Shown: in pieces, positions 3,246 to 27,873 of the stretch
How the letters are laid out: each line of letters starts with the position of its first letter
Position numbering within the stretch: the first letter of the stretch is position 1
From: a virus
DNA length: 27,873 bases
IMG/VR virus record: IMGVR_UViG_3300050821_006155
Span: 1-27,873 of that record
Strand: one strand, 5' to 3'
The notes under the pieces: model-generated
What the model was told of the DNA's origin: nothing
The model's input: only the letters and a program-made list of their open reading frames with translations
Database searches by the model: none
Made by a program: the position numbers and the translations under genes

Positions 3246-3959
3246 CTAGCGGGTGATTCTCTGCGCCAACGTATTCGGCACTCCATTCGGACTTGCTTTA
3301 ATCGTGCGGGCCAGCTTCAAGAGCGCCGACTGGTCTCCGCCCAATGCTGCTGCCGCAAGTGCTTTGTCGGCCACAACAGGAGTCGCTGGTGGCCCTCCGC
3401 CAAGGTTCGCGGTATCGTTATCCTTCTTGACGGGCACCGTCTGGTGCACCTTGACTGCCGGAACAGCATCGCGGTCGCCGACGCCAGGCTGGGCCTCTGG
3501 CGCTGCGCCATCGGCGATAGAGAAGACCGTCTTCAGGATGCCCGTTGTGTTCTCATCCATCTGGGCCGTAAGTTCGGTCTTCATCTTCTCGACCTTCTCG
3601 TCAAGAAGCTTGCCGATTTCTTCCAGCGTCGCGGCTTTGGCAGCCGAATGCGCTCCGGTTCCAGAATTGTCAACCGTGATCCCGGAATCTGTTGGGCCTC
3701 CGCCAGAAGCGGTGTCGCTTCCCGTGATGCCAGCGATGGCTTTCGAGAGACCCTCGTGGTGCGCCTTCTCGACGGCCACCATCGAATCGTGGTGGGCCTT
3801 GTGAAGAGCGGAGTGCTCGGGCGCGACCTTGTTCATCAGGTCGTGGTGGGCCTTGTGCATTGCGACGCGTGTGTCATGATGCGACTTCGCCATCGCCTTG
3901 CACGCTTCCATCGCGCTCTTGAAAAGTTCAGCGGCTTTCTTCAGTTCATTTGCATCCAT
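3246..3959 (-). CDS. Nested scaffold protein from internal start
   Basis: An in-frame ATG at 3959 is preceded by AAGGAGG (3968-3974) with 8 nt spacing, one of the best Shine-Dalgarno sequences in the window, although it lies deep inside the protease gene. Initiation here would give a 237-residue protein beginning MDANELKKAAELFKSAMEAC. It would contain only the His-rich repeats, the Gly-rich linker, the predicted coiled coil and the C-terminal tail. Nested scaffolds inside protease genes are established in other phages, for example lambda C/Nu3. Production here is inferred from the ribosome binding site and domain boundary, and is not shown by sequence alone. Confidence 0.6.
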   Translation of the reverse strand: MDANELKKAAELFKSAMEACKAMAKSHHDTRVAMHKAHHDLMNKVAPEHSALHKAHHDSMVAVEKAHHEGLSKAIAGITGSDTASGGGPTDSGITVDNSGTGAHSAAKAATLEEIGKLLDEKVEKMKTELTAQMDENTTGILKTVFSIADGAAPEAQPGVGDRDAVPAVKVHQTVPVKKDNDTANLGGGPPATPVVADKALAAAALGGDQSALLKLARTIKASPNGVPNTLAQRITR

Positions 3960-5852
3960 TGCCTTTTCCTCCTTGCCGCTGAGCGCGGCGACAATTTCAC
4001 TCGTCTCCTCCTCAACCAGCGCGACATAGCACTGAACGAGGTCTTCGATCACTTGCTTCAAGTCCAAGGGCACCGTGCTCGAATCGCCTTCGATCTCGCG
4101 CTCCCACGCCAGGCAGTCGTAGACAAACGACAGGGTGGAAAGCACGTCGGTAAGGTCGTGGACATCCCAGAGGCTCTTCTGAAGCTTCTCGACCTTCGCG
4201 GCGTCGTTGCCCGCTTGGCCCGAGAGAATGACCTGAGACCTCCACATGCTCTGCGCCTGTTCCGGATTCGCCAGAGAGAAAGCGTAGAGTTTGAAAATCT
4301 TGGTGGCCTCTTCCGAGACCTCGACGCCGAACTTCTTCGCCGCCGCGACGATTTTCCCCTTGACTTTCTTCTTCTCGCCATCGGGAATGCCTTGCGTCTG
4401 GCCGAAGCGCGCGAGCGCGTTTTGGGCGTGAGCCTTGTCGTGAATCGGAAGCTTCCACGTCGAAGTGTCTTCAGGGTCGCCGACATAGGCGAAGTCGGAA
4501 GCGTGAAGGTCTTTGCCGCCCTTGCGCTTCGTCTTAGCTTCCTTCTGAACTTCGAGGATTCGAGGAGGAGCCGCAACGACTCCGGCTTTGATGAGCGCTT
4601 GGACCGTGGCTTCCGCCACTTCCTCGGCGACGCTCTTCGCGACCGGAGCCACATGGTAGTGGCTCTCGCCAATCACCAGCGTCGATTCTTCCGGGCCGCA
4701 CTTCTGGTAGGCGACGCCATTGATGACGGGCGCGTCGAGATTCGTGATATCCATGTTCACCGCGCTCTTCTTCGCCAGAGGCGGCGCAATGACGGCCTTC
4801 ACAAGCTCGATGCTTCCGTTGGCCTTGGTGAGCGGGAAGCTTGTTCCCTTCATGGATTCGATCAGCGCCTCGGGCCAGCATGGAGAATCAACCGCAGAAA
4901 CTTCGCCGGGATTCGCGGTGTAGCGCACGCATCCCTTGAAAACCGGATCGGGCTTCTTCTCTCCGACGTAATCGCCGCCCTGGCTGAAGCCGATGTAGAT
5001 ACCTTTCTTGTACTTCATAATCGCGGTGGGATCGTAAACCTGAAATCCCATCCGGATCGTCTTCGCCGGGTCGTCGAAGTCCAGCTTAACGCCCTTGCCG
5101 ATTGCGTCGAGAGTGTGCATCGAGCGATGCGGCATTAACGATGGCTCCATGCCGGGAATGCTGGTCGCCTTCAATTGCCACTCCGCCTTGGCCTTATAGA
5201 AAGGCTTCGTCGTCGCGTAGTCACAAACTTCTTTTTCGAGGTCCGGCGTCTCGCCCGTGATCTTGCCGTAGACATAGAGTGAGCCGTCCGGCTGCTCTTC
5301 CATCTTTTCCAGCGGAATGAATTTGTGGAAACTCTTTTGCATGGCGGACCCTCCAACCTTTCCGAGTGGAACGTGGAACTGTGCCTCCCCCGCCGTGCTC
5401 AGCGTCACCGCCGAGACCTTGAACATCTTCTCGAACGGTTGGCCGTCGTACTTTGAGGCCGCATCCGCTTTCACATAAGCGAGCGTCAGATGCGGCGAGT
5501 AACTGAAATCATCTTCCTTCGCGCCCATCGCTTTGTGAATATCGTCATGAAGCGGCTTCAGGTCGGTATTCACTTTCAGCACGACCGGAGCCGCGCCGTC
5601 ACTCTGTTCGCTCGGCGGAAAGACCGAGACGTTTCCAACCTCAACATCGAACGGCTGGTAGTTCGCGACCGCATTCTCCAAAGTCAGCGGCTCTTCCTTC
5701 ACGCCGTACTTGAGCGTGATGTGCGGCTGATCCTCGCGCCCCTTGCCAGCCAAATCTTCGTCGGAGATGAGCGCCTTTCCAAAAGCGATAATGTCGGCGG
5801 CCACTTCGGTCGGAACATTGATTTGCGTGCTCGCAAATTTCGCTTTGTCCAT
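3246..5852 (-). CDS. Composite 2H phosphoesterase / prohead protease / scaffold protein
   Basis: The 868-residue product is modular. Residues 1-165 contain two H-x-T-L motifs, HITL (44-47) and HLTL (121-124), the signature of 2H phosphoesterases (LigT/2'-5' RNA ligase superfamily). Residues 172-345 resemble XkdF-type prohead proteases, with 'LMPHRSMH' (candidate catalytic His, 242-246), a beta core, and 'NPGEVSAVDSPCWPEA' matching the family's 'EiSlVD.Pa.p.A'. Residues 447-512 contain DFAYVGDP...WKLPIHDKAHAQNALARF, a DUF6582-like module. Residues 657-706 are His-rich 11-residue repeats, followed by a Gly-rich linker and a coiled coil (about 735-790), as in scaffolds. The ATG at 5852 is chosen over an upstream TTG; it has no strong Shine-Dalgarno, only GCGGAA from the palindrome just upstream. 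Two better ribosome binding sites lie inside the gene (see separate entries). Confidence 0.85.
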   Translation of the reverse strand: MDKAKFASTQINVPTEVAADIIAFGKALISDEDLAGKGREDQPHITLKYGVKEEPLTLENAVANYQPFDVEVGNVSVFPPSEQSDGAAPVVLKVNTDLKPLHDDIHKAMGAKEDDFSYSPHLTLAYVKADAASKYDGQPFEKMFKVSAVTLSTAGEAQFHVPLGKVGGSAMQKSFHKFIPLEKMEEQPDGSLYVYGKITGETPDLEKEVCDYATTKPFYKAKAEWQLKATSIPGMEPSLMPHRSMHTLDAIGKGVKLDFDDPAKTIRMGFQVYDPTAIMKYKKGIYIGFSQGGDYVGEKKPDPVFKGCVRYTANPGEVSAVDSPCWPEALIESMKGTSFPLTKANGSIELVKAVIAPPLAKKSAVNMDITNLDAPVINGVAYQKCGPEESTLVIGESHYHVAPVAKSVAEEVAEATVQALIKAGVVAAPPRILEVQKEAKTKRKGGKDLHASDFAYVGDPEDTSTWKLPIHDKAHAQNALARFGQTQGIPDGEKKKVKGKIVAAAKKFGVEVSEEATKIFKLYAFSLANPEQAQSMWRSQVILSGQAGNDAAKVEKLQKSLWDVHDLTDVLSTLSFVYDCLAWEREIEGDSSTVPLDLKQVIEDLVQCYVALVEEETSEIVAALSGKEEKAMDANELKKAAELFKSAMEACKAMAKSHHDTRVAMHKAHHDLMNKVAPEHSALHKAHHDSMVAVEKAHHEGLSKAIAGITGSDTASGGGPTDSGITVDNSGTGAHSAAKAATLEEIGKLLDEKVEKMKTELTAQMDENTTGILKTVFSIADGAAPEAQPGVGDRDAVPAVKVHQTVPVKKDNDTANLGGGPPATPVVADKALAAAALGGDQSALLKLARTIKASPNGVPNTLAQRITR
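5340..5354 (-). promoter_or_regulatory. Internal ribosome binding site before protease domain
   Basis: GGAGG at 5350-5354 is followed after 7 nt by an in-frame ATG at 5342-5340 (codon 171 of the 868-codon gene). The codon falls exactly at the boundary between the 2H-phosphoesterase domain and the protease domain, and would yield a 698-residue product starting MQKSFHKFIPLEKM. It may be a relic of two once-separate genes or an active secondary start. Confidence 0.55.
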
Positions 5853-5862
5853 AGCGCACAAA

Positions 5863-5877
5863 TTCCGCTAAGCGGAA
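5863..5877. repeat. Dispersed palindrome copy 1, TTCCGCTAAGCGGAA
   Basis: This is a perfect 7-bp inverted repeat around one central base. Its centre contains the TAG stop codon of the 5868-6461 gene, and it ends 10 nt before the ATG of the protease/scaffold gene. As RNA it could form a 6-bp stem with a 3-nt loop. As DNA it could bind a dimeric regulator. Confidence 0.9.
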
Positions 5878-6461
5878 AGTGTCTCCTCAGTGATTCGAAC
5901 CTTGCTGCCGCAGTCCGGGCAACGCAAACCGACGCCGTCCTTGTGCCACTGGCCTCCGCAATGCTCTGTGCTTTCTTTCTCAGCTTCCGGCTCCGGCGCG
6001 GGCGGCTCTGGCGTTTCCGTCACAAGCACCGGGCCGTTTTCTCCCGCTGGCCGCGCGTAGCGATCCATCAGCGCGGCGATTTCACTCTTCACTTCCGGGG
6101 GAAGCATCTGGAGAATCGGCGTTTCCAGAATCAGCGCCATCGCTGAACCGGGAGCGACGGGCTTGGGAGGCTCGAAGAATGGAACGCCATTCGGCGAGTA
6201 AGCTTGGAGCTTCAAGGTTTTCAGGGGAGCGATGACAGTCTGAAGCACCTTCCATCCGCTGTTCGGATCGCCTGGCTGACCGTAGCACTCAGCCGCGAGA
6301 TCGGCGGGGATGAAAACTTTACCGCCATGCTTCAGCCTCAGCACGCACGCGAAGATAGCGGCGAGTTGGTGCATCACGTCATTCTGTTCGGCGATGGAGG
6401 CGGCCAGTGCCATCTCTGTCGCCTGGCCGTTGCCATTTTTCATCGGGATCACGCGGCCCAT
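5868..6461 (-). CDS. Unknown protein with C-terminal zinc ribbon
   Basis: I do not recognise the first 140 residues, which are mostly helical and include a hydrophobic stretch (SAMALILETPILQMLPPEV). A Pro/Glu-rich linker (ETPEPPAPEPEAEKE) leads to a C-terminal zinc-ribbon-like unit HCGGQWHKDGVGLRCPDCG, with ligand candidates H/C...CxxC. The start is uncertain. The frame stays open to a TTG at 6554 that has no Shine-Dalgarno, so the ATG at 6461 with a weak AAGG is preferred (197 aa). The stop codon lies inside the repeated palindrome. The position between portal and protease genes suggests a role in head assembly, but no function can be assigned. Confidence 0.65.
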   Translation of the reverse strand: MGRVIPMKNGNGQATEMALAASIAEQNDVMHQLAAIFACVLRLKHGGKVFIPADLAAECYGQPGDPNSGWKVLQTVIAPLKTLKLQAYSPNGVPFFEPPKPVAPGSAMALILETPILQMLPPEVKSEIAALMDRYARPAGENGPVLVTETPEPPAPEPEAEKESTEHCGGQWHKDGVGLRCPDCGSKVRITEETLSA

Positions 6462-6575
6462 TTGCCGGAACCTTTTTTCGTTCTGGAAAGCCTCGCGCAC
6501 CGAAGGAGGACTTTCATCGTGCTCTCGGGCGAACCGAGAAAGTGCGCGTGCCAATCAAGGAGTTAAATCAATCGA

Positions 6576-6584
6576 ATAATACCA
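6576..6584 (-). promoter_or_regulatory. Possible extended -10 promoter
   Basis: On the minus strand TGG-TATTAT matches an extended -10 element (TGn followed by a 5-of-6 match to TATAAT). It lies in a short AT-rich gap after the 6613-7095 gene. No good -35 is visible. If active it would drive the protease and capsid block separately from the portal. Confidence 0.25.
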
Positions 6585-6612
6585 GCGAACAGCCGCAAGG
6601 GAATAACTTTTT

Positions 6613-7095
6613 TTAATCGGCAGCCTTCGCCGCCCCGGAAACACTGGAATTCATCCGCTCGGCCCCGGCTTTTGCCAGTTGAAGCCGGAGCGTAATCGGA
6701 AGCCGAGGCCAGAAGTCGTCGAGGAGTGCGAGGCGAACGGTGCTCGGGATCAATCCCCAAACGGCGTTGATGAAAGCCGGGTCCACAGAAATCTCGGCGG
6801 TGCTGGGTTGCGCCGGGCGCGGCTCCAATGGGTGATGATGAGTCACAACAGAGCGATCCTTCACACGCTTTGCGGCTACGGGCATCCCGAGAACCTTCTT
6901 GCAATCCCGACAGAATCCTCTCGTGTCGAGTTGATGGCGCACTCCGCCGCACTTAGCGCACACTCTCTTCCTGAGTTGGATCAGATCGCCTTCGATCCGG
7001 ATGTGCTCGAAGAGGCTGTTGGATGGCTCGCCGAAATCCTCGATGAACGGATACTTCGCCTTTAGCGCGTCGTTCGCTTGCCTATCAGCTAACAT
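6613..7095 (-). CDS. Zinc-finger-containing hypothetical protein
   Basis: The 160-residue product carries one clear treble-clef or ribbon-like motif, CAKCGG (residues 46-51) followed by FCRDCKK about 17 residues on: CxxC-x13-CxxC. The rest is a mixed helical sequence ending in basic and Ala-rich residues. It is encoded between the portal-MuF and protease genes, which is consistent with a virion-assembly accessory protein. The ATG at 7095 has GAGGAG 5 nt upstream. I do not recognise a named family. Confidence 0.7.
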   Translation of the reverse strand: MLADRQANDALKAKYPFIEDFGEPSNSLFEHIRIEGDLIQLRKRVCAKCGGVRHQLDTRGFCRDCKKVLGMPVAAKRVKDRSVVTHHHPLEPRPAQPSTAEISVDPAFINAVWGLIPSTVRLALLDDFWPRLPITLRLQLAKAGAERMNSSVSGAAKAAD

Positions 7096-7107
7096 GGTGC
7101 TCCTCTC

Positions 7108-9558
7108 TTACTCTTCTTCGCCTGATTCGCCTTCGCCAGTGATATCCGCCGCAACCACAACGCACTGGCAATTCGGGTGGGCCGGAGGACTCTCGTCGCC
7201 GCTCGGAAAGCCTTCGCCAAATTTCACAACCTCGCCATCGTTGCCTTCACACTCGTCGCACACATTCTCGTTGTCGGAGACGAGCCACTGAACGGATTCG
7301 ACCAGCCCGGTGGACTTCCAAACCTCCCAATTGCCTTTGACTTGAGCGTTCGCAACTTCGGTGCGCGCAATCATATCGGCGCGCGCCTCCGAGAAGGCCC
7401 CGGCGTCGCGGATTTGTTGCACCAGTTCCGTCATTGGCGTCTCTTTGCCAAAGGAGTCCTTGATGATGGTGCGAAGCTCATCACGCGTCGTATCGCTGAT
7501 TACCCACTGCGCGTTGGGGTTTGGAATCAGCGCACCTTCGACATCGAACTTCATGCCGACCATTTCCGCTGCGCGCTCGGCGGCCCATTGCTGGGCGATC
7601 TTATTGACGGCGCTGATGAGGCTGCTGTCGGTGAGATGAACGTCGATGATGCCCTTGTCGACGCCAGCGATGGCGGCTTGCTCCAGCGCCGCGCGCACTT
7701 CAACCGGAAGCGACGAGAACTCCGCTTCAATCGCCGCATAAATCTCGTCGGCGATCTCCGCCGAGTTGTCGGCCTTGCGAACCTTCTGAAGCAATCCCGT
7801 GGCGACATGCGCCGCGCGATCCTTCTGTCGCCGGAAGATTTTCTTCAGCGCCTCGTCGATCTTGCTCTTCGCCGCCATCGTCTCAGCATTGGAGTGCGCC
7901 GGGTTGATGGTGAGGCCGCCGATCTTCTTCGCGGCCTTCACAAGCGCGCCCCGGCTCTTGCTCACATAGACCGATCCGTCTGAGGTCTCCATTCGGAAGA
8001 GCTTCTTCGCATCCGGCTCCTTTGAGACTGCTGGCTTCTTCGGCGCGCCAGGTTTCGGAGGTTTGCCATTGCCATTCGCGGGCGCGGCTTGTGGATCGGG
8101 CCGGACGCCAGCCGAAATCATTTTCTGTGTTCGCTCGATTTGCGATTGCACCGCCAGCGGCATCCAACCGTTCGTCGGCGAAAAGACGCCAGGCTCATCA
8201 GCCTCGGGATATTTCGAGACATCGTAAGGGTCTTTGCCCATGGCGATGCGCGCTTCATTCAAGGTAATGACAGCCTTGTCGGAATAGCCCGTATCAACCT
8301 GCATCTGTTTCAGCGGGTCGGTTTCCCGGCGCGGCTGGTACGAGAACTCGATGTCATCGAAACCCATCTTGTCGGGGTCTTGAATGACGTGGTTGATGAC
8401 ATCTTCCACCGTGCGGAGCTTTGGCTCCAAGCCTTCTTCTTCCGCGCTCTCCGCGCTCTGCTGGGCGGTCGCGCGGTTCATCATCTTCATCAGCGCTTGA
8501 GGAGTGGTGCCCATGCCATAGGCGACAATCTGCATCTGCCACTCGTCGAAGATGTCCTTGAGAAGCTGTTGCTTCGGGAAAACAATGTTTGGCCTGAAGG
8601 GACGATCCGAATTGCCGTAGCCGGGCAAGAAAGTGAGCCGCCGCCGCATCGCGAGGTTGCCAGCGAAGACCGTGTCAAACCAGTCTTGCGCCTCCTTCAC
8701 CTTGTCAATCGGAACGTCGCTCGGCAAGAAGCATATCGCTTCGGGGATGTTGCCCTCTTTGTATTCGTTCATCACGAATTGCTGGCGGCTGATGCCGATG
8801 GCAATCGTTACGACCATCTGTTCGACCGGGCCATAGCCATAGCGCTTCCATGTGCGGGGGTTCCGCATGGTGTAGACGAGATCGTCGGTCGTGAGATCAA
8901 TCGCCGGGACGCCATAGAGAATCTGCTGGTAGGCGACATCCTTCTTCCCATCTTTGTCTGCGCCTTGCGGCGTGAAGCCTTGGTCGGTAACCACGCGCTC
9001 GATGGTGGCTCCGTCGATGGGCCGGAGGTTGGCAATCTTCCCCTTGAGGTCGCGCTCCAGATAGATCGCCCAAGCGTCGAGCACCAGCATGTCTTCGAGG
9101 CCCATGCGGAGCCAGTCGCGCCACGGATGAATGCCATCGGGGAACTTCAAGAACTGGCGGACAGCAGCGATGCGCGGGTCGTCCTTGGTCCGCGCTTCGA
9201 GATCGCTCTTCTTCTCGCCCGGCTCAGCGATTAAGCGCACGTCCCATGGGATCGAGCAGATTCGGTCTTTCACCGTCTCGATGATGATGCGGAGCAAGTC
9301 CCATGTGTCGGCAATCTCGCGGAGGAGCGCGAAGCCGTGACTGGTCGTATTCTCCGAGCCTGGCGTCCATGCGAGGTTCGCGCCGGGCTGGACCGAGTAT
9401 TGGCGGACGCGCGTTCCGGCTGGAGCTTGCGGGCGCACGGGCTTGAGAACGGAGAACCAGCGGTTCGGCTCGATGTCGCGGATGTCGCCAGTTCCGCCCG
9501 TGGGAAAGATTTGCGGAAGCGAGAGATACGTTGCGCCCTGCGGAAGCTTCGGTGGCAT
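7108..9558 (-). CDS. Portal protein fused to MuF-like head morphogenesis domain
   Basis: The 816-residue product has two parts. Residues about 30-480 resemble HK97/SPP1-type portals (DUF935/phage_portal class): 'IIIETVKDRICSIPWDV', 'LLVLDAWAIYLERDLKG'-like wing strands, 'RTWKRYGYGPVEQMV' and the clip region. A Pro/Lys/Asn-rich linker covers about 484-520. Residues about 560-816 resemble phage Mu protein F/SPP1 gp7, ending in the family's cysteine-histidine cluster VCDECEGNDGEV...SPPAHPNCQC. The portal forms the dodecameric DNA entry and exit ring, and MuF-type domains are minor head components ejected with DNA or needed for assembly. The start ATG at 9558 has GAGG 6 nt before it. Confidence 0.9.
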   Translation of the reverse strand: MPPKLPQGATYLSLPQIFPTGGTGDIRDIEPNRWFSVLKPVRPQAPAGTRVRQYSVQPGANLAWTPGSENTTSHGFALLREIADTWDLLRIIIETVKDRICSIPWDVRLIAEPGEKKSDLEARTKDDPRIAAVRQFLKFPDGIHPWRDWLRMGLEDMLVLDAWAIYLERDLKGKIANLRPIDGATIERVVTDQGFTPQGADKDGKKDVAYQQILYGVPAIDLTTDDLVYTMRNPRTWKRYGYGPVEQMVVTIAIGISRQQFVMNEYKEGNIPEAICFLPSDVPIDKVKEAQDWFDTVFAGNLAMRRRLTFLPGYGNSDRPFRPNIVFPKQQLLKDIFDEWQMQIVAYGMGTTPQALMKMMNRATAQQSAESAEEEGLEPKLRTVEDVINHVIQDPDKMGFDDIEFSYQPRRETDPLKQMQVDTGYSDKAVITLNEARIAMGKDPYDVSKYPEADEPGVFSPTNGWMPLAVQSQIERTQKMISAGVRPDPQAAPANGNGKPPKPGAPKKPAVSKEPDAKKLFRMETSDGSVYVSKSRGALVKAAKKIGGLTINPAHSNAETMAAKSKIDEALKKIFRRQKDRAAHVATGLLQKVRKADNSAEIADEIYAAIEAEFSSLPVEVRAALEQAAIAGVDKGIIDVHLTDSSLISAVNKIAQQWAAERAAEMVGMKFDVEGALIPNPNAQWVISDTTRDELRTIIKDSFGKETPMTELVQQIRDAGAFSEARADMIARTEVANAQVKGNWEVWKSTGLVESVQWLVSDNENVCDECEGNDGEVVKFGEGFPSGDESPPAHPNCQCVVVAADITGEGESGEEE

Positions 9559-13672: not shown

Positions 13673-15490
13673 TCAGTGCGCTCCGTTGTTTGCGTTCGAC
13701 CACCCGCAAACGCATTTTACAGTCTCGCCGTACCGCGCCAAACCTTTATTTCCACAATTCGGGCACGCGAGAATCTTTGGCCCGGCTTGAGCCTTCTGGC
13801 GATTCGATGGCTGAGGCTTGTGCATTTTCTCCGCGCCGAAGACCACGCCCGCCGAGGTCTTGTTGAAGCTGGCGATCTGCGCCGCGCCGCTGGCGACAGC
13901 GATCTCCTCCTCCGTCTCTGGCTTCTCGCCATCGGCCTTTTTGATAGCTTCGGCCTGTTGCTTCAGCCGCCCAAGCACTCCGCTCATCATGTGGCGCTTA
14001 GAATACCGCAAAGCATGACAAGCGGCTGAAATATCGTCGTCGTGCCCCACAGCCGGGTATTCCGAAGCCAGCTTGATAAAAGCCTCCGCCCATGGCGCGT
14101 CGGCTGGGATGTGCGCCTTCCCAGCTTCGACAAGCGGCTGGACCGCGTAAGCCAAGCCGAGGAGTCCGCCCGTGATCGACTGGAGAATCATCGGGAACTC
14201 GTGCCTCATCTCATCCTCGACCGCGCTGGCGTTCGCGGCGTCTTCAAGCACCACGGCGTCGATGTCCACGCCCTCCATGATCCAATAAGCGATGGTGCCC
14301 CGGATCGCGGCCTTCGTTGCCGAAAATCCTAGATGCTCCGTCTTCATCGAGAGCCAGTAGCCGTCGCCTTCGTCGGTGACGCCGACCGTGTGGAGAGAAA
14401 CAAAATCGTTCTTAGCTTTGTCCTTGAAGGCGCAGTCCACAGTGATGATGGTCGCTAAGAATTTCGGCCAGCTTGTCCTGTCCGCTAAGCGGAAATCTCT
14501 CTTCCACCACATCGGGTTAAAGATGATTCCTTCCTTCGGAGCCGGGCGCTGGTTGTATTGCTGGGCGTAGTTGCGAGAGCCGAGTCCAATGCGAAGCGAA
14601 GCGACAACTTCCGCTGGAAATCGGTTCGGCTGAAGAAGTTCTCCCTTCTTACGCTTAACGACGCGCTTCGAGATCGGAAAGACATATTCCTTTTCCTCCT
14701 CTTGCTCCTCCATGGGGATTGAGATTTGTGTCCACGACTCCGGCTCCAGTCGCATGACGTGCCCGGTCGGATCGTCTGTATTCGTCCGCTGCTCGATGAT
14801 GATGATTGCGCCCGTCATCTGGTCGGAGAGCCGCGAGCGCAGGGTGCCGTCGATGAAGTTGAGCGCCGAGGTGCGCTCTTGATCCGAGTCCGCCTGTTGC
14901 GGGTTCATCAAGTCGTCGAGAATGATGTCGTGCACGCCCTTGCCCGTCGCGGTCCCGCCTGGCGACGTGGCAATCATCTTGCCGCCTTGATTGTTGCTGA
15001 AGAGCGCTTTCTGGTTCTCGAAATCAGAGAAGACGACTTTATCCGGGAAGGTGCTTTGATACCACTCGGATTGAAGCACAGCGCGCCGCTCGATGGAGTG
15101 CGCTGTACTCAAGCCAGCCGGGCCGCCTGAATAGCTCGCGCACATAAAGCGCCGCGATGGGAGCCGCGCCCAAACCCAGCATGGATAGAAGACGGTGGCT
15201 ATGCGCGATTTCGAGGTCTGAGGCGGGACGTTGATGATGAGGCGACGGATGATTCGCTGAAAGACCAGCGTGAGATATTCGCAAATCAGGTCATGGTGCC
15301 AGTTCCATTTGAACTCCGTGGCTGGCTCCAGCACCGTCCATGCGCGCCGACAGAAGGACGCGAGGTCATTAGAGTTCTGTTGATCTACAAGAAGCTGGCG
15401 CTGTTCAAGAAGTCTAAGGAGAAGGGCCTTCTCCTCCGGCGTCGCTTTAGCGAGCAGCGAGTTGTCGAATGAGATTGGAAAGCTGCTCAT
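13673..15490 (-). CDS. terL: Terminase large subunit
   Basis: The 605-residue protein is the ATP-driven DNA-packaging motor and nuclease. The N-terminal ATPase has a Walker A region VPPQTSKS (residues 88-95; family form P-x-x-GKS, with G replaced by S) and Walker B DIILDD (188-193). The C-terminal RNase H-like nuclease shows the three acidic motifs: IITVDCAF (D352), AVVLED (E416/D417) and GHDDD (D484-D486). Residues 571-600 add a zinc ribbon, CPNCG...KCVCGW, which is not part of the usual fold. The ATG at 15490 overlaps the end of the upstream small-terminase candidate by 44 nt. One near-perfect copy of the dispersed palindrome lies in codons 331-337. Confidence 0.95.
   Translation of the reverse strand: MSSFPISFDNSLLAKATPEEKALLLRLLEQRQLLVDQQNSNDLASFCRRAWTVLEPATEFKWNWHHDLICEYLTLVFQRIIRRLIINVPPQTSKSRIATVFYPCWVWARLPSRRFMCASYSGGPAGLSTAHSIERRAVLQSEWYQSTFPDKVVFSDFENQKALFSNNQGGKMIATSPGGTATGKGVHDIILDDLMNPQQADSDQERTSALNFIDGTLRSRLSDQMTGAIIIIEQRTNTDDPTGHVMRLEPESWTQISIPMEEQEEEKEYVFPISKRVVKRKKGELLQPNRFPAEVVASLRIGLGSRNYAQQYNQRPAPKEGIIFNPMWWKRDFRLADRTSWPKFLATIITVDCAFKDKAKNDFVSLHTVGVTDEGDGYWLSMKTEHLGFSATKAAIRGTIAYWIMEGVDIDAVVLEDAANASAVEDEMRHEFPMILQSITGGLLGLAYAVQPLVEAGKAHIPADAPWAEAFIKLASEYPAVGHDDDISAACHALRYSKRHMMSGVLGRLKQQAEAIKKADGEKPETEEEIAVASGAAQIASFNKTSAGVVFGAEKMHKPQPSNRQKAQAGPKILACPNCGNKGLARYGETVKCVCGWSNANNGAH
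14481..14494. repeat. Dispersed palindrome copy inside terL
   Basis: TCCGCTAAGCGGAA matches the intergenic element at 14 of 15 positions (outermost T replaced by G). On the minus strand it encodes part of RDFRLADR between the ATPase and nuclease domains. Its presence inside a coding region argues for selection at DNA level, or for chance conservation of a tolerated insertion. Confidence 0.8.
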
Positions 15491-15851
15491 CGAGTTCCGT
15501 CAACGACATCTTCACGGGGATTCCTCCATCATCCGGCCCGGCGAAGTGCTGGGTGACCTTCCCTTCCACGCGATCCGCGACCGCGTTGAATGCGCTGGCG
15601 TCGCCCTTTGCAGCTTTGCGCGCAATACCCTCGGCGATGATGCGCTTCCACTGACGCTTCTCTTTGTCGTTTGGAAAGCTCTCTTCCATCAACTCCGAGA
15701 GCGCGTCGGTCATGACCTTCTTGGGCCGACCGCCAGGATTCGGACAAACGCCCGGCACAAAGTTGGGAGCTTTGTGCGCTCGGAGCGCCGCGATGGAATT
15801 CGGGTTCTGACCATTCCTGATTCGCCCGTCGATTTTCTTTGGCTTTCCCAC
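15447..15851 (-). CDS. DUF5681-like protein, probable small terminase
   Basis: The 134-residue product contains the motif CPNPGGRPKK (about residues 36-45), then TDALSELMEE, then 'IAEGIARKAAKGDASAFNAVADRVEGK'. This is the arrangement of DUF5681 proteins, which are frequently encoded directly before terL and may act as DNA-recognition small terminases. The GTG at 15851 is chosen because AGGGGA lies about 9 nt upstream; the TTG at 15860 would overlap that site. The C-terminal helix (MSLTELDEQLSNLIRQLAAR) overlaps the terL start by 44 nt. The small-terminase role is inferred from family and position. Confidence 0.75.
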   Translation of the reverse strand: MGKPKKIDGRIRNGQNPNSIAALRAHKAPNFVPGVCPNPGGRPKKVMTDALSELMEESFPNDKEKRQWKRIIAEGIARKAAKGDASAFNAVADRVEGKVTQHFAGPDDGGIPVKMSLTELDEQLSNLIRQLAAR

Positions 15852-15883
15852 TGACCGCAATCCCCTTTTATCACCGGATTATC

Positions 15884-16192
15884 TCACGCGCGCTTCCATC
15901 CGTCTTGTTTTCGCTGAGCCGCCAACTCCGGCTGGAAGACTGGAACTCCCGCGATGGTCACAAGCCCATAGGTCGGGTGCCTCTCTTTGACTTCGCCTTC
16001 CGGTCCCGATGGGCATCCATGATAAGCGCGATTCATGCAACAAGGGCTGTCTGGACTTCCTGTGTTGCGCGAGCCGCTGAGCGTTGCACCGCGATGCTGA
16101 TACAGTCCGGGTGCCCAGCATTGCCGCCCGATGCAGCGCTCATCCTTGAACGAGTAGCGCGCCTTGTCGCCTTTGCGCTTAAAGCTTGCCAT
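15884..16192 (-). CDS. Cys-rich hypothetical protein
   Basis: The 102-residue basic protein (MASFKRKGDKARYSFKDERC...) has a Cys-rich middle, CIGRQCW...SPCCMNRAYHGC, which might bind metal or form disulfides, and ends GLVTIAGVPVFQPELAAQRKQDGWKRA. Its ATG is embedded in the stop of the upstream gene (TGATG), so translation is coupled to that gene even though the upstream gene is partly foreign. No family is recognised. Confidence 0.6.
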   Translation of the reverse strand: MASFKRKGDKARYSFKDERCIGRQCWAPGLYQHRGATLSGSRNTGSPDSPCCMNRAYHGCPSGPEGEVKERHPTYGLVTIAGVPVFQPELAAQRKQDGWKRA

Positions 16193-17160
16193 CAGCGGCG
16201 CGATTCCACTTCGAGCACAACATTCATCGCATCCGTGAGAGTTGCCCCATTCTCAAAGCGGCAGTCCTTCACCTTGGACACCTTGGCCGTTGCGCTGGAA
16301 ACCATCTCACACGTCACAACCGTTCGGCCTTCATGCGCGCCGGGCTTCGCGCCTTCTATCAAGACCAAGTGGCCGGGCTTACTCTCTTGTTCGATCAAGG
16401 CAAAAGAGTAGGCAGGCCCGATCAAGCAGATGGCAAACAAGTCGCAGAATATCTCCTCAGTCCAATATTTTAGCGTGTCCAGTGAGAGAGTAATGTCCTG
16501 ATCATCTAGGACGCCGACTTCTTTCTCCAGCGCTTCGAGGACTCTCTCGATCTCTGTAGCCACGTCTGGCGAGTAGACCTCCTGGTAGGCTACATGGCCC
16601 ATTTCGTGGGCAAGGAGGCAGTTCAAAAGAAACCCATCGGACTGGGAATATGGCATTCCAATGAGTCCGAGTGACAAGGGGAATCTGGTTCCTTTGACGA
16701 TGTCGGCTAGCTCATCCGCTGCTTCCTTCACTGTTCCCGGGGGCAGCTGCAAATAATTGACCTGATCTGAATGAAAGACGGTAAACCTGAGATCCTTCAG
16801 ATCTTCGAGCTTATTGATTCGATCCTGGATAGCGAAGATCAGCGACGTCGGTACGTGAAGCGTATCCGCTGCTAGCGCAGCCTGGAGGTACTCATGAAGG
16901 TTCTCCCATCCGCTCCTGACGCTGTTCAGCTTTCTACGCTTCGATCGGGCTGTGTCCTTGTCCTTTTCAGCGGATGAAGGGAATTCTTTCAAAAACTCCT
17001 TGGTCTCTGCACCAAGTGTCTTCACGTACTTCAGGAACTCTTCAGAGCTTGGAGTGTAAACCGGGTACTCGTGAATCTCGGCGCAGCGCCGAATCACCGA
17101 GTCTATGAATCGGTACAGCGCGGCAGACTCCTGCCGCACCGTTTCGGAGAGGTTCGTCAC
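16192..17160 (-). CDS. Zinc metallopeptidase (HExxH), apparently C-terminally replaced
   Basis: The 322-residue product has the zinc-peptidase core HEMGH (185-189) and a downstream acidic ligand in YWTEEIFCDLFAICLIGPA (E235/E236), a gluzincin layout that also recalls the E..A..FA..LL.P helix of ImmA/IrrE peptidases. N-terminal residues 1-180 are mostly helical with a charged KDKDTARSKRRK stretch. From about residue 258 the sequence changes to SKPGHLVLIEGAKPGAHEGRTVVTCEMV..., which looks like the end of an unrelated exported phage protein. A junction near position 16390 is therefore suspected. The GTG start overlaps the stop of the 134-aa gene (GTGA), forming a two-gene operon behind the operator region. 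The substrate is unknown; the XRE repressor or the 134-aa partner are candidates by analogy with ImmR/ImmA. Confidence 0.7.
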   Translation of the reverse strand: MTNLSETVRQESAALYRFIDSVIRRCAEIHEYPVYTPSSEEFLKYVKTLGAETKEFLKEFPSSAEKDKDTARSKRRKLNSVRSGWENLHEYLQAALAADTLHVPTSLIFAIQDRINKLEDLKDLRFTVFHSDQVNYLQLPPGTVKEAADELADIVKGTRFPLSLGLIGMPYSQSDGFLLNCLLAHEMGHVAYQEVYSPDVATEIERVLEALEKEVGVLDDQDITLSLDTLKYWTEEIFCDLFAICLIGPAYSFALIEQESKPGHLVLIEGAKPGAHEGRTVVTCEMVSSATAKVSKVKDCRFENGATLTDAMNVVLEVESRR

Positions 17161-17561
17161 TTGTGGGCAAGTCTTGGTGCCGGATGATTGTAGTGATAGA
17201 GCGCTCTTCCTTCCAAGGCGTCGAAGAAACTGATGGCCTGTAAAGCGCTGGCGCGTCGCTCCGCTGGAGTCTTGGAACTCATCACAGTTTTCAGCTTCTG
17301 GATCAGGGCAGCTTTGTCCTGGGCTTGTACGACCTCGCCAATTGTCACAGCGTTCTCGTAGTGTCCGAATGATCCGCGGTCCTTCAATGACCTGACCTTC
17401 GTGCGCTCGCCCGATCCCGCTAGCGAGGCCAGAACCGCTTTGAGCCCCTTGTTAAGGTCAGGGGGATATTGCCCTTCCTCAACCAAGGCGATCAGAGAAT
17501 CCGTTAGTTTCCGAATTCTGAGCGCGAAGACTAGGTACCTCGATCGCGATTCAGATCCCAT
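17157..17561 (-). CDS. Hypothetical partner of the metallopeptidase
   Basis: The 134-residue protein (starting MGSESRSRYLVFALRIRKL) is helical and basic, with YPPDLNKGLKAVLASLAGSGERTKV and 'FFDALEGRALYHYNHPAP' as distinctive segments. No family is recognised. The ATG at 17561 has AAGGAGGG 6 nt upstream. It is the first gene of the leftward operon controlled by the AT-rich operator region, and its end overlaps the metallopeptidase start by 4 nt, so the two proteins probably function together as a toxin-antitoxin-like, defence or regulatory pair. Confidence 0.7.
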   Translation of the reverse strand: MGSESRSRYLVFALRIRKLTDSLIALVEEGQYPPDLNKGLKAVLASLAGSGERTKVRSLKDRGSFGHYENAVTIGEVVQAQDKAALIQKLKTVMSSKTPAERRASALQAISFFDALEGRALYHYNHPAPRLAHK

Positions 17562-17657
17562 TCAGCCCTCCTTCCGCCGGGAATTGTTGCCCAAGTAGCT
17601 CCCCTCCTGCAAAGGGGTGCCTTGGGGGGAAATCAAGTCGGCCATTTGGCGCGAGCC

Positions 17658-17687
17658 AGTATATACCCCGTTCGCAACATCCACGAA
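17658..17687 (-). promoter_or_regulatory. Leftward promoter of the metallopeptidase operon
   Basis: On the minus strand TATACT (17658-17663) is a 5-of-6 match to the -10 element, with a weak TTCGTG (17682-17687) at 18-bp spacing. It lies about 97 bp before the 134-aa gene. Operator-like repeat A (17676-17697) covers its -35 region, as expected for a repressed promoter. The 205-bp gap (17562-17766) is the most A+T-rich stretch of the window. Confidence 0.4.
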
Positions 17688-17697
17688 TGTTGATATT
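17676..17697. promoter_or_regulatory. Operator-like repeat A
   Basis: The core AACAT-(6 nt)-ATGTT is an inverted repeat. The whole 22-nt unit matches repeat B at 17 of 22 positions, and the two starts are 31 bp apart. The likely ligand is the XRE protein whose N-terminal codons remain at 17783-17851. Confidence 0.55.
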
Positions 17698-17706
17698 TAC
17701 TTTCGT

Positions 17707-17728
17707 AATATACACGATAGTTGACATT
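17707..17728. promoter_or_regulatory. Operator-like repeat B overlapping a TTGACA
   Basis: This is the second copy of the operator unit, sharing CACGA and GTTGA blocks with repeat A. It includes TTGACA (17721-17726), a perfect -35 for rightward transcription toward the XRE fragment. The -10 at 17745-17750 (GAAAAT) is weak. The arrangement is that of a divergent, self-regulated repressor region. Confidence 0.5.
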
Positions 17729-17766
17729 ATCACTGTAAGTCAATGAAAATGTAAAACTCGCTGAGG

Positions 17767-18039
17767 TCAAATAGCAACGATCGTGGATACAAACTGGAAA
17801 GAAAAGCTCGGGGAAGAAATTCGCAGAGCCAGGAAGCGCAAGGGCATGACCCGCGGGACCGGGCCTTCGATCTTCAGGCGCTTCATTAGATACATCAGCG
17901 TGCGGTAGCTGATGCCCATGTTTTTAGCCGCGATGAACGCAACTCCATTTGCGGCAGCGAGGTATTCACGGACGAGGCGCTCTTCGAACTTGACAATCTC
18001 GCCGTAATAAGAATGCTCAGTGCTGAAGGAGTGCTCCAC
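17767..18039 (-). CDS. Fis-type helix-turn-helix protein with altered C-terminus
   Basis: Residues about 18-57 (FEERLVREYLAAANGVAFIAAKNMGISYRTLMYLMKRL) match the Fis/NtrC C-terminal DNA-binding fold, with 'AAKNMGIS' as first helix and turn and 'YRTLMYLMKRL' as recognition helix. The GTG at 18039 is chosen because AGGAG lies 7 nt upstream; an ATG at 18054 lacks this. The last ~28 residues (after KIEGPVP) read antisense through the XRE N-terminal codons, so the native end of the gene is probably lost at a junction near 17851. It may regulate late transcription, inferred from the fold only. Confidence 0.65.
   Translation of the reverse strand: MEHSFSTEHSYYGEIVKFEERLVREYLAAANGVAFIAAKNMGISYRTLMYLMKRLKIEGPVPRVMPLRFLALRISSPSFSFQFVSTIVAI
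17783..17908 (+). pseudogene. Truncated XRE-family repressor, N-terminal remnant
   Basis: On the plus strand a GTG at 17783 begins VDTNWKEKLGEEIRRARKRKGMT, the typical first helix and approach to the HTH of XRE/cI-like repressors ('LG..IR..R...GMTQ'). After codon 23 the reading becomes RGTGPSIFRRF... and stops at 17908, which is simply the antisense of the Fis-type gene. The HTH itself is therefore missing. The break falls at about 17851. This is the only plus-strand gene remnant in the window and is preceded by the two operator repeats. No good Shine-Dalgarno is evident. Confidence 0.65.
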
Positions 18040-18457
18040 TCGAAATCTCCTCATCGTCCGCGTTGAAGGTTTTCACGATGCCTGGCGCGAGCGATCCATC
18101 GAGGCGAATCTGGACGGCGCTGAATTCCAGCGCGATCTTCTGCTCGATAGAAAGCTCGTCGCAATCGAAGAAGCACAAGCGCTTTCGGAGTTCGTCGTGC
18201 GTCTTCTCCGACATCTTCAGATAAGAAGGGATTGACTTGCGTGGATAGAGCCTTTCAATCTCGTCCATCACAGCCTTGATGCGCGCAAACGTCACAGGCT
18301 CCGATCTGAGATGCGGATCATAGATTACCGGGAAGTCAAGCGGCCCATAAGCCTCCAGCGAGAAGTCGGACAGAATCAACTCGCTCTTATCGACGCTATC
18401 GAGGCCAGCGATGATTCTCATCCGCTCGGCCAGCGCGGGAGGAAGAATTGTTGTCAC
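18017..18457 (-). CDS. Hypothetical protein
   Basis: The 146-residue acidic protein includes 'ILSDFSLEAYGPLDFPVIYDPHLRSEPVTFARIKAVMDEIERLYP' and 'SIEQKIALEFSAVQIRLDGSLAPGIVKTFNADDEE'. No motif or family is recognised. The GTG at 18457 overlaps the stop of the cold-shock gene (GTGA), and the 3' end overlaps the Fis-type gene start by about 20 nt, so it is part of a coupled operon. Coding is supported by these overlaps and by a natural amino-acid composition. Confidence 0.6.
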   Translation of the reverse strand: MTTILPPALAERMRIIAGLDSVDKSELILSDFSLEAYGPLDFPVIYDPHLRSEPVTFARIKAVMDEIERLYPRKSIPSYLKMSEKTHDELRKRLCFFDCDELSIEQKIALEFSAVQIRLDGSLAPGIVKTFNADDEEISSGALLQH

Positions 18458-18690
18458 CCGACCACCTTCACATTGATTGCCTGAAATCCCTTGTCTGTTT
18501 TCGTGACGTCGTACTCGACGCGCTGGTCGGCCAGAAGTTGACGGTAGCCTCCGGAGTCGATCCCGGAGTAGTGGACGAAGATATCCGATTCCTTCCCCTC
18601 GCGCTCGATGAAGCCGTAGCCTTTCGCGGCATTGAACCATCTGACCGTGCCGCGCTCGCGAACTTCGGGGGTAGTGCCCGTTGCGCTCAT
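18454..18690 (-). CDS. Cold-shock domain protein
   Basis: The 78-residue protein carries both RNP motifs: GTVRWFNAAKGYGFIE (K-G-Y-G-F-I, RNP1) and DIFVHYSGI (RNP2). This OB-fold binds single-stranded RNA or DNA and acts as a nucleic-acid chaperone. The C-terminal 'LLADQRVEYDVTKTDKGFQAINV' matches the canonical 'L..Gq.V.F.v...kG.qA.nV'. The ATG at 18690 has AGGAG 10 nt upstream; a TTG at 18720 is ignored. A phage-encoded CSP could assist translation or transcription antitermination. Confidence 0.95.
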   Translation of the reverse strand: MSATGTTPEVRERGTVRWFNAAKGYGFIEREGKESDIFVHYSGIDSGGYRQLLADQRVEYDVTKTDKGFQAINVKVVG

Positions 18691-18742
18691 TGTCTTTCCA
18701 CTCCTAACTGAGATGAGCAAATATTACAGCGAGATGGCAGAT

Positions 18743-18760: not shown

Positions 18761-19471
18761 CTAGGCTCCAACATTCCAGAACAGCGCGCCATCCGCGCCG
18801 TGCTCCCTGATGAAGCTCCAAACCTTTGCGTCGTAATTGTCACAGCTTGGGAAGGGCGGCGCTTCCTTGCGCGAGGGCTGTTCAAATTTCTCTGATGCCT
18901 TCCAGAGCTTCGCCCGGCCCACATTGCACTCGCCGCCGACCTGAACAGCATGGAAGCTGGCTTTGGGCCAAGCATCTTGCAGCGCCCGCGAGAGCGTCCC
19001 GCTCCCGGCGCAAGACCATACCTCTTTGGGCTTGATGGGCATCGAGGCGACAAACTTCGAGAATGCGGCGATGGCCACCGGGTCTTCAACTCCGAATGGC
19101 ACCAGCGACGCGCCGACCTCCAGAGCATAGGCCCGCGCTCGCGCTTGCACCACGGTGAGATATCCGTGAGGCACCATGACGATCTTAGCTCCGGCTTCTT
19201 TGGCGCGGAGCGTGCGCGGATGAATCTCTTTCCGCTTGGCCGTGAAGATCGTCGCCTTGACGCCGACCATGGCACAGCAATGCGCGAGCGCGATCTGGGC
19301 GTAGCCGAAGGCTGGCGAAGCATAGACCCATTCAGGCGCGGCGCTCGATTGCACGAGCGGGAGAATGTAACGCATCTTCGAGCCGCCAGGCAGCAAGTCA
19401 TCGCGGACGACTTGGAAGCGATCCACTTTCTCGATGACTGGCTCCGGGAGAGATGGGAGGGCTGATTTCAT
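18761..19471 (-). CDS. PLP-dependent fold-type-II enzyme
   Basis: The 236-residue protein matches the ACC deaminase / D-cysteine desulfhydrase branch of the tryptophan-synthase-beta superfamily. 'VVRDDLLPGGSKMRY' provides the Schiff-base lysine (K32), 'ASPAFGYAQIALA' corresponds to the substrate-carboxylate loop, and CAGSGTLSRAL (about 154-164) is the phosphate-binding loop. It is shorter than cellular family members (about 330 residues), and the C-terminal region seems reduced. The reaction cannot be specified; lyase or deaminase chemistry on an amino acid is likely. The ATG overlaps the stop of the preceding gene (ATGA). Confidence 0.8.
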   Translation of the reverse strand: MKSALPSLPEPVIEKVDRFQVVRDDLLPGGSKMRYILPLVQSSAAPEWVYASPAFGYAQIALAHCCAMVGVKATIFTAKRKEIHPRTLRAKEAGAKIVMVPHGYLTVVQARARAYALEVGASLVPFGVEDPVAIAAFSKFVASMPIKPKEVWSCAGSGTLSRALQDAWPKASFHAVQVGGECNVGRAKLWKASEKFEQPSRKEAPPFPSCDNYDAKVWSFIREHGADGALFWNVGA

Positions 19472-26924: not shown

Positions 26925-27873
26925 CTATAAGAACAGCGCCTCGCTGTTGGCGCGCACAGTTTTATTTTTCCCGTACTCGATGAGATTGGCCGTCTTCAGC
27001 ACGCTCAGATAAGTCCCGAAGGAGCCGCGGCTTTCCATCCCGGAAAGCTCGAAGACGTGATCCTTGTCCATCCACGCGCCCTTCCCATCCAAGATGATGT
27101 CGAGAATTCTATTCTGGCCGGGGTTAAACTTCGGCCTCCAGATCGCGAGCACCTCGTCCTTGCTCTTCGGAGCCTCAGCGTTGCACGAAACCACCGCTTC
27201 TACGCCAGCGGTTGTCAAGCCAATCGTGCGCGCATTATCCACGTCAATGAGGCCAGCCTTCTTCAAGTTGGAAAGATAGGTTCCGAATGTTCCCTTGCTC
27301 TTGATTCCAACGAGCGACTTTAGTTGCGAGAAGCGGAGGCGCTCCGGATAGAAGCGCGAGAGGTTGGCGAGGATGCGGTCGGTTCCCTTGCTGCTTTTCA
27401 CTTCGGCTTCAGCCGGAGCGGCGACGCGGATGGAGCCGCGCATTCCCTTGGCATCGTCGCGAAGCGTAATCGCGACTGGAGTCTCCGGAGTGATCTCGAT
27501 TGTCTTCACAGCCGCCGCGATGGCCTTCTTCGCCGCAAACGAGAGTTGAAGCTCATCTTCGAACGCGGTGAATAGGCTCCAGAAAGTGTCGTCGTTCAGG
27601 CGTTTGTGAACCTCAACGAACTCAGTCGCCGCGCGCTCCATGCCTGTCGTCAATTGCGCGACAGCGCTCTTGAGCGTAGACGCAAATCCCTTCTCCAGTC
27701 GCGGCCTCAATCCTCTGAAGATGCGCTGGAGTTCGTCGCGCTGAGCCACTAAGAGAGCCTCGCGATCCACAGTTTCTTTCTTACCGGGCGCGGAGGCCGG
27801 GACCTTCGCTGTCAATTGCTTTTGGAGCCGGGCGATCTCAGCGCGGAGTTCTTTGGGAACATCCGCCCGCGCT
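26925..27873 (-). CDS. Tandem winged-helix protein, 5' end beyond window
   Basis: The frame is open to the right edge, so the TTG at 27815 is not the start; 315 residues are visible. An N-terminal helical part (KELRAEIARLQKQL...AQRDELQRIFRGLRPRLEKGF) leads to two homologous C-terminal units: RILANLSRF...GIKSKGTFGTYLSNLKKAGLI and RILDIILDG...GMESRGSFGTYLSVLKTANLI. The shared G-(I/M)-x-S-x-G-(T/S)-F-G-T-Y-L-S-x-L-K-x-A-x-L-I resembles winged-helix recognition and wing segments. It probably binds DNA as a tandem domain. The remainder of the protein is needed to name it; similar C-terminal units occur in DUF87/HerA-type ATPases. Confidence 0.7.
   Translation of the reverse strand, partial: ARADVPKELRAEIARLQKQLTAKVPASAPGKKETVDREALLVAQRDELQRIFRGLRPRLEKGFASTLKSAVAQLTTGMERAATEFVEVHKRLNDDTFWSLFTAFEDELQLSFAAKKAIAAAVKTIEITPETPVAITLRDDAKGMRGSIRVAAPAEAEVKSSKGTDRILANLSRFYPERLRFSQLKSLVGIKSKGTFGTYLSNLKKAGLIDVDNARTIGLTTAGVEAVVSCNAEAPKSKDEVLAIWRPKFNPGQNRILDIILDGKGAWMDKDHVFELSGMESRGSFGTYLSVLKTANLIEYGKNKTVRANSEALFL

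Follow-up and report, generated by a model that had tools for sequence, protein, structure and literature searches.

A probable fragment of a foreign operon on a phage contig and its link to a peptidase family recurring in Argonaute and dCTP-deaminase-like operons

The stretch analyzed here (the window) is the whole of the IMG/VR virus record IMGVR_UViG_3300050821_006155, which is 27,873 bases long and carries phage late genes on the minus strand (Table 1). As the initial annotation had proposed, a cassette is embedded among late phage genes, of which those for TerL, a TerS-like protein and a portal-like protein were identified; a 516-aa protein encoded farther to the left is probably the capsid protein. 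The cassette lies near the terminase genes, between a small phage gene and a gene for a Fis-type helix-turn-helix (HTH) protein, in the same orientation as the phage genes. The Fis-type HTH was recognized by a match to PF02954 (HTH_8, E 2.9e-4) over residues 22-59 of a 95-aa ORF at 17767-18054. Single-sequence searches of viral, genome, phage and plasmid collections with TerL returned distant TerL matches only. Two further minus-strand genes of the window were noted. At 3246-5861, adjoining the capsid genes, is encoded an 871-aa head-region protein with an N-terminal 2H phosphoesterase (PF13563, 4.4e-12), two HxTL motifs and a match to the Acb1 anti-CBASS model (7.3e-5); it is a candidate anti-defence enzyme that would accompany the head. 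A phage-borne 236-aa relative of pyridoxal-phosphate enzymes (PALP, 2e-8) is encoded at 18761-19471, adjoined by a cold-shock protein gene at 18454-18720.

Table 1. Features of the window and of the intact bacterial relative L016
Feature	Contig	Coordinates	Strand	Remark
516-aa protein	window	1612-3162	-	matches PHROG of unknown function
Portal-like protein	window	7108-9558	-	phage late gene
TerL	window	13673-15490	-	phage late gene
TerS-like	window	15447-15860	-	phage late gene; relatives at 37-39% identity
Small phage gene	window	15884-16192	-	left neighbour of cassette
Peptidase ORF with HEMGH, 322 aa	window	16192-17160	-	peptidase part and phage tail fused in frame
Phage gene C-terminal part, 65 codons and stop	window	16192-16389	-	in frame behind peptidase fragment
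Peptidase part, N-terminal 257 residues, HExGH zinc-peptidase-like	window	16390-17160	-	profile match, L016 homology
Partner, 134 aa, helical	window	17157-17561	-	homologous to gene in same place in L016
AT-rich divergent control region	window	17562-17782		47.5% GC
Operator-like unit O1 ATCCACGAATGTTGATATTT	window	17679-17698	+	pattern matches
Operator-like unit O2 ATACACGATAGTTGACATTA	window	17710-17729	+	pattern matches, promoter scan
Operator-like unit O3 ATCCACGATCGTTGCTATTT, inverted	window	17769-17788	-	overlaps XRE stub start codon
XRE-like stub, 23 codons, GTG start	window	17783-17851	+	followed by junction to phage sequence
Phage Fis-type HTH gene	window	17852-18054	-	3' end clipped by right junction
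XRE, 117 aa, intact	L016	853-1206	-	divergent from partner
Partner, 141 aa	L016	1310-1735		homologous to window partner
Peptidase, 462 aa	L016	1716-3104		overlaps partner gene; homologous to window peptidase
dCTP-deaminase-like gene (P0008), 235 aa	L016	3092-3799		overlaps peptidase end

The interval 16390-17851 (1,462 bases) is the most atypical stretch of the contig by 3-mer, 4-mer and dinucleotide composition, and none of 157 equal-size windows is as far off. Its 3-mer distance is 0.00411, compared with a mean of 0.00213 (sd 0.00044) for the 157 other windows, its 4-mer distance is 0.00155, compared with 0.00098 (sd 0.00010), and its GC content is 52.2%, compared with 57.9%. These data bear out the distinct layout and composition described for this interval, and both boundaries given for it are correct. 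The view that the cassette is foreign agrees with this outlying composition. Relatives of its partner and peptidase are present in a bacterial metagenome-assembled genome (MAG), Bryobacterales bacterium isolate palsa_187 (PNAJ01000158.1; L016). Single-sequence searches of viral, genome, phage and plasmid collections with the window peptidase or partner gave no confirmed relative; the family was found by screening GTDB genomes with a degenerate DNA pattern encoding W-x-E-E-x-F-C-D, which led to L016.

In L016 an intact XRE gene is divergent from a partner gene, which is followed by overlapping genes for a peptidase and a dCTP-deaminase-like (DCD) protein. Thus, the 134-aa protein and the peptidase, for which a search for co-occurring homologues behind an intact XRE gene had been suggested, do have such homologues together in the same layout. 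The two partners are 29% identical (E 4e-13, pairwise), and the two peptidases are 35% identical (E 1.5e-43) over residues 11-255 of the window protein. Both loci have operator-like repeats in the divergent region, although those of L016 form a different array, repeated TGTACA palindromes at 1205-1270, at the same position. L016 is complete with its DCD gene and lies on a bacterial MAG contig, whereas the window holds a cut copy on a phage contig. The DCD protein of L016 (P0008) is recognized by PF22769 (7e-24) and resembles solved dCTP deaminases (E 1.1e-15), its KSSxAR and LTLE motifs being aligned with theirs. The L016 operon adjoins genes for an ABC-transporter permease and a CutA-like protein and does not lie in an obvious defence island. 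A match in G004 (C9) from the search that gave the L016 peptidase match proved to be a false positive, and an AlphaFold2 model of the 462-aa peptidase (5 sequences) was too poor to use (pLDDT 42), so that its fold search is meaningless.

The window partner gene has an AGGAGG ribosome-binding site closely 5' of its ATG and overlaps the downstream HEMGH-containing ORF by 4 nt (17157-17160), as had been noted. The AlphaFold2 model of the partner is helical (pLDDT 78.8, pTM 0.70), and a fold search with it gave no significant match. The peptidase had been considered longer than ImmA. It is in fact C-terminally truncated: residues 1-257 of the ORF are peptidase, and the last 65, unrelated to the peptidase family, are the tail of a phage gene, the stop codon of which overlaps the start of the small phage gene at 16192. 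A profile built without the window copy aligns residues 63-257 with its positions 28-245 of 391, and the match ends at nt 16390; from this point the L016 peptidase continues with a different sequence. The peptidase part has the motifs HEMGH, W-T-E-E-I-F-C-D and GPAY, and thus appears to retain the putative metal ligands. It has lost a conserved C-terminal part, including about 146 profile positions and an HP....R segment holding a P and an R (P276 and R281 of L016) that are nearly invariant among 20 aligned members. In a phylogenetic tree, the window peptidase groups with the DCD-linked L016 (99/96) and with a DCD-linked Planctomycetota copy, L026 (91/92), and so belongs to the DCD-linked lineage.

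Upstream of the partner gene is the AT-rich divergent control region, in which a promoter scan found 3 sites compared with 0.4 in shuffled sequences. Two promoter-like sites overlap, one leftward (17755-17726) and one rightward (17721-17750). The initial annotation had placed two similar operator units at 17676 and 17707; both are real, but the number is three, an inverted unit having been missed. O2 overlaps the -10-like hexamer of the leftward promoter and the -35-like hexamer of the rightward one, and the three copies of the operator-like consensus (ATmCACGAwNGTTGmyATTw) together lie over both promoter directions and the start of the stub. Exactly three copies of the pattern CACGANNGTTG are present in the 27.9-kb window, all of them in the control region; chance alone would give 0.19, a figure that is too flattering because the pattern was derived from these three copies. 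To the right, the 23-codon stub reads VDTNWKEKLGEEIRRARKRKGMT and is afterwards out of register with XRE proteins, its frame running into the phage HTH gene. The cut after 23 codons stands as described, and the position is that of the XRE gene of L016, but the call as XRE is weak when made from the stub itself, which has no Pfam match and scores 4.4 bits against a small XRE profile. The stub is a probable start of an XRE repressor gene on account of its position and of the intact XRE gene at the same divergent place in L016.

The cassette is therefore cut at both ends. It stops inside the peptidase gene, upstream of the position expected for the DCD gene, and neither a DCD, Argonaute or Cas4-like gene nor an intact XRE gene was found in the whole 27.9-kb window, so that effector and repressor are both absent. 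This does not fit a complete module or the moron that had been suggested. We regard the cassette as probably a fragment of a foreign operon composed of genes for an XRE repressor, a small helical partner, an HExGH peptidase and a DCD protein. As both of its ends are cut and it is short of about 146 profile positions that its relatives retain, among them HP....R, the copy in the window is probably a non-functional remnant.

What kind of peptidase is this? In 20 aligned relatives, columns of H, E, H, E, D and G are invariant, comprising HE..H and a downstream E....D, and zinc binding and peptidase activity of the family are predicted from these motifs. Full-length relatives are mostly 380-510 aa long. 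Searches of Pfam with 20 diverse members gave no convincing peptidase-family match, and neither Pfam nor NCBIfam provided a match to a characterized housekeeping family, an identity that would have spoken against a defence-type module. Kinship with ImmR/ImmA, to which the initial annotation had compared the cassette, is not shown: Peptidase_M78 (PF06114) matched 0 of the 20 members even at E 0.5, while a real M78 protein encoded near a family locus (L060:3220-4101) was recognized at 3.1e-13, and some Argonaute operons that contain the peptidase have a sigma-70-type gene instead of XRE. The PADLOC capP model matched 3 of the 20 members weakly, the best at E 0.0082. By sequence the peptidase is thus not an ImmA, although it may work like ImmA or CapP. 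The partner and peptidase of the window (P0001, P0002) matched 0 families among the PADLOC models. The true M78/IrrE gene of L060 (genome G111) lies about 1 kb upstream of a gene in which peptidase and DCD are fused (5212-7341).

With a 12-sequence peptidase profile, the family was detected in 11 of 396 genomes of Acidobacteriota, 10 of 294 of Planctomycetota and 9 of 296 of Bacteroidota; these counts include the seed genomes G001, G002 and G003. In 7 of these 30 genomes, from three phyla, a DCD-like gene adjoins the peptidase gene (G001, G002, G332, G438, G507 and G723) or is fused to it (G111, as a 709-aa protein). The domain and motifs of P0008 match those of dCTP deaminase, which has the trimeric dCTP deaminase/dUTPase fold; the operon-borne copy is an extra one, because another DCD-family gene is present elsewhere in 7 of the 7 DCD-linked genomes. 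The defence deaminases that have been published (AvcD/dCD) have a different fold, that of cytidine deaminase. Literature searches for dCTP deaminases encoded next to metallopeptidases found nothing relevant. A defence function of the DCD-type operons is suggested by their genomic company.

In 8 of the 30 genomes, the peptidase gene accompanies that of a small protein in a class-II Argonaute operon. Operons for Argonaute, a Cas4-like protein, a small protein and the peptidase were also found, by PADLOC pAgo_II calls and profile matches, on plasmids of Bacteroidota and of one cyanobacterium, and on haloarchaeal plasmids the peptidase gene is convergent with an Argonaute/PprPIWI-like gene, with no annotated regulator adjoining the peptidase. 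The peptidase of L009 had grouped with Argonaute-type copies, and its upstream flank, examined afterwards as a prospective check, encodes XRE, Cas4-like, Argonaute and small proteins; a second peptidase in the same genome is again associated with an Argonaute operon. In L020 and L024, a sigma-70-type gene takes the place of XRE, the peptidase is kept, and there is no XRE nearby. The defence-type link that had been suggested is thus upheld by relatives beside class-II Argonaute and Cas4-like genes. These operons resemble, in layout and in having an HTH or sigma-70 regulator, those of the DNA-guided, RNA-targeting (D-R) class-II Argonautes (PliAgo/PnyAgo), for which such regulator pairing has been described (PMC9360449), and from their layout they would belong to the D-R groups. 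The main texts of three Argonaute surveys (PMC6299218, PMC2743648 and PMC9360449) mention no peptidase or protease, while their figures may show an unnamed gene; in the operons found here, a homologous HExGH peptidase lies behind the small protein. Unlike the DCD type, to which the window copy belongs, they have Argonaute and a Cas4-like nuclease as the effector. Their small proteins have no detectable kinship with the window partner, and the notion of a common partner accordingly rests on position and size.

Neither DCD nor Argonaute lies beside the peptidase in 15 of the 30 genomes, and these copies fall largely in a more distant branch. In Acidobacteriota and Planctomycetota, members of this branch (L054, L056, L061, L064, L065 and L069) lie in different gene clusters, which have no DCD or Argonaute and several of which encode very acidic proteins. 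A distant peptidase is also found on a Bradyrhizobium conjugative plasmid (L019, 1791-9863) in the order patatin, DUF2252, PLD, peptidase, CHAT, CHAT, and on a Runella plasmid (L023, 7240-9419) an Argonaute-peptidase operon is followed by multiubiquitin, ThiF and DUF6527 genes.

How did a piece of this operon come to lie in a phage contig? Both junctions might be metagenome assembly or library chimeras, with host-derived DNA in a phage contig, in which case no phage carries the cassette. The cutting of genes on either side of both junctions, the strongly different composition and the lack of a peptidase relative in the viral collections searched would all fit, as would the microhomology at the junctions, which does not exceed chance, 245 of 2000 random pairs being as good. 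However, this explanation needs two independent joins 1.46 kb apart in one contig, with no long shared stretch as a k-mer assembler would need, and the cassette genes are co-oriented with the phage genes. Moreover, the sequences on the two sides of the cassette look like parts of one phage: besides relatives of TerS at 37-39% identity, there is a distant match (24%, E 9e-8) to the gene at 26925-27815, located about 7.7 kb from TerS on the same strand of a related contig. A chimera is therefore rather unlikely in our estimation, and two joins within 1.5 kb, without a long shared stretch and between phage-like flanks, speak for a genuine insertion or replacement. The phage relatives examined for an empty site (L070-L079) did not reveal the ancestral arrangement, because they share near it only TerS and one distant match far to the right. 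A candidate empty site at a shared CCGGGC, which would give a plausible HTH gene end overlapping the next gene, was rejected since the similarity is no better than chance. If the insertion is real, the 322-aa fusion might even be a living, domesticated module, an active peptidase with a phage-derived tail borne by the phage as a moron. In its favour are the open in-frame fusion, the intact putative metal ligands and catalytic Glu, and the intact-looking promoter and ribosome-binding site upstream of the partner. However, the fusion lacks the segment with the nearly invariant P276 and R281 as well as about 146 profile positions, the repressor is gone, and an in-frame join had a 1-in-3 chance of arising anyway. 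We consider a living module highly improbable.

In the intact operon, to judge from its anatomy, an XRE protein on the three operators would silence the promoters of both directions. Together with the peptidase, the helical partner may form one translation-coupled protease unit that several defence operons share. The neighbour of this unit varies, being either an extra protein of the dCTP-deaminase/dUTPase fold or a class-II Argonaute with a Cas4-like nuclease; it may act on or sense nucleotides or invading nucleic acid. The protease unit would then be a shared response or processing component rather than a dedicated cutter of XRE. The operon does resemble ImmR/ImmA, PprI(IrrE)/DdrO and CapH/CapP in having an HTH repressor beside an HEXXH protein and an operator array, the intact repressor being present in L016 and absent in the window. 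The HExGH ... EExxCDxxA...GPA arrangement of the family resembles the HEXXH...E layout of ImmA/IrrE. One could thus imagine a switch like ImmR/ImmA or CapH/CapP, in which, on a cue of damage or infection, the peptidase aided by its partner would cleave XRE and open the operon. The presence of XRE, peptidase and operator array in both the window and L016 and the weak capP matches would be in keeping with it, and PprI and CapP cut their repressors upon ssDNA stimulation (PMC10904395). Unlike these systems, the operon has an extra partner gene and a peptidase, mostly of 380-510 aa, that lacks any M78 match, even though a true M78 neighbour is recognized at 3e-13, and that is retained in loci with a sigma factor in place of the HTH gene. 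A protease that cut only XRE should vanish with XRE, but this one remains alongside a sigma-70-type gene; its fusion to DCD in G111 ties it to the effector, and in the haloarchaeal loci no annotated regulator adjoins it. Because of the persistence without XRE and the lack of an M78 match by sequence, we favour a shared protease component of defence operons as the likelier role, and a dedicated derepression protease seems doubtful. More tentatively, the small helical protein and the HExGH peptidase may constitute an unnamed unit common to the Argonaute/Cas4-like and extra-DCD operons, in which the Argonaute or deaminase-fold protein would be the sensor and the peptidase the executor.

The fragment in the window thus leads to a peptidase family that has no Pfam model and recurs in class-II Argonaute operons and DCD operons in several phyla. 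Unless it is chimeric, the phage contig has acquired a piece of what is probably an anti-phage operon. Should protection depend on the peptidase, the Argonaute operons would gain two functional parts in addition to the Argonaute, the Cas4-like nuclease and the HTH or sigma regulator that the survey names in its main text, and a protein of the dCTP-deaminase/dUTPase fold would become a candidate component of defence.
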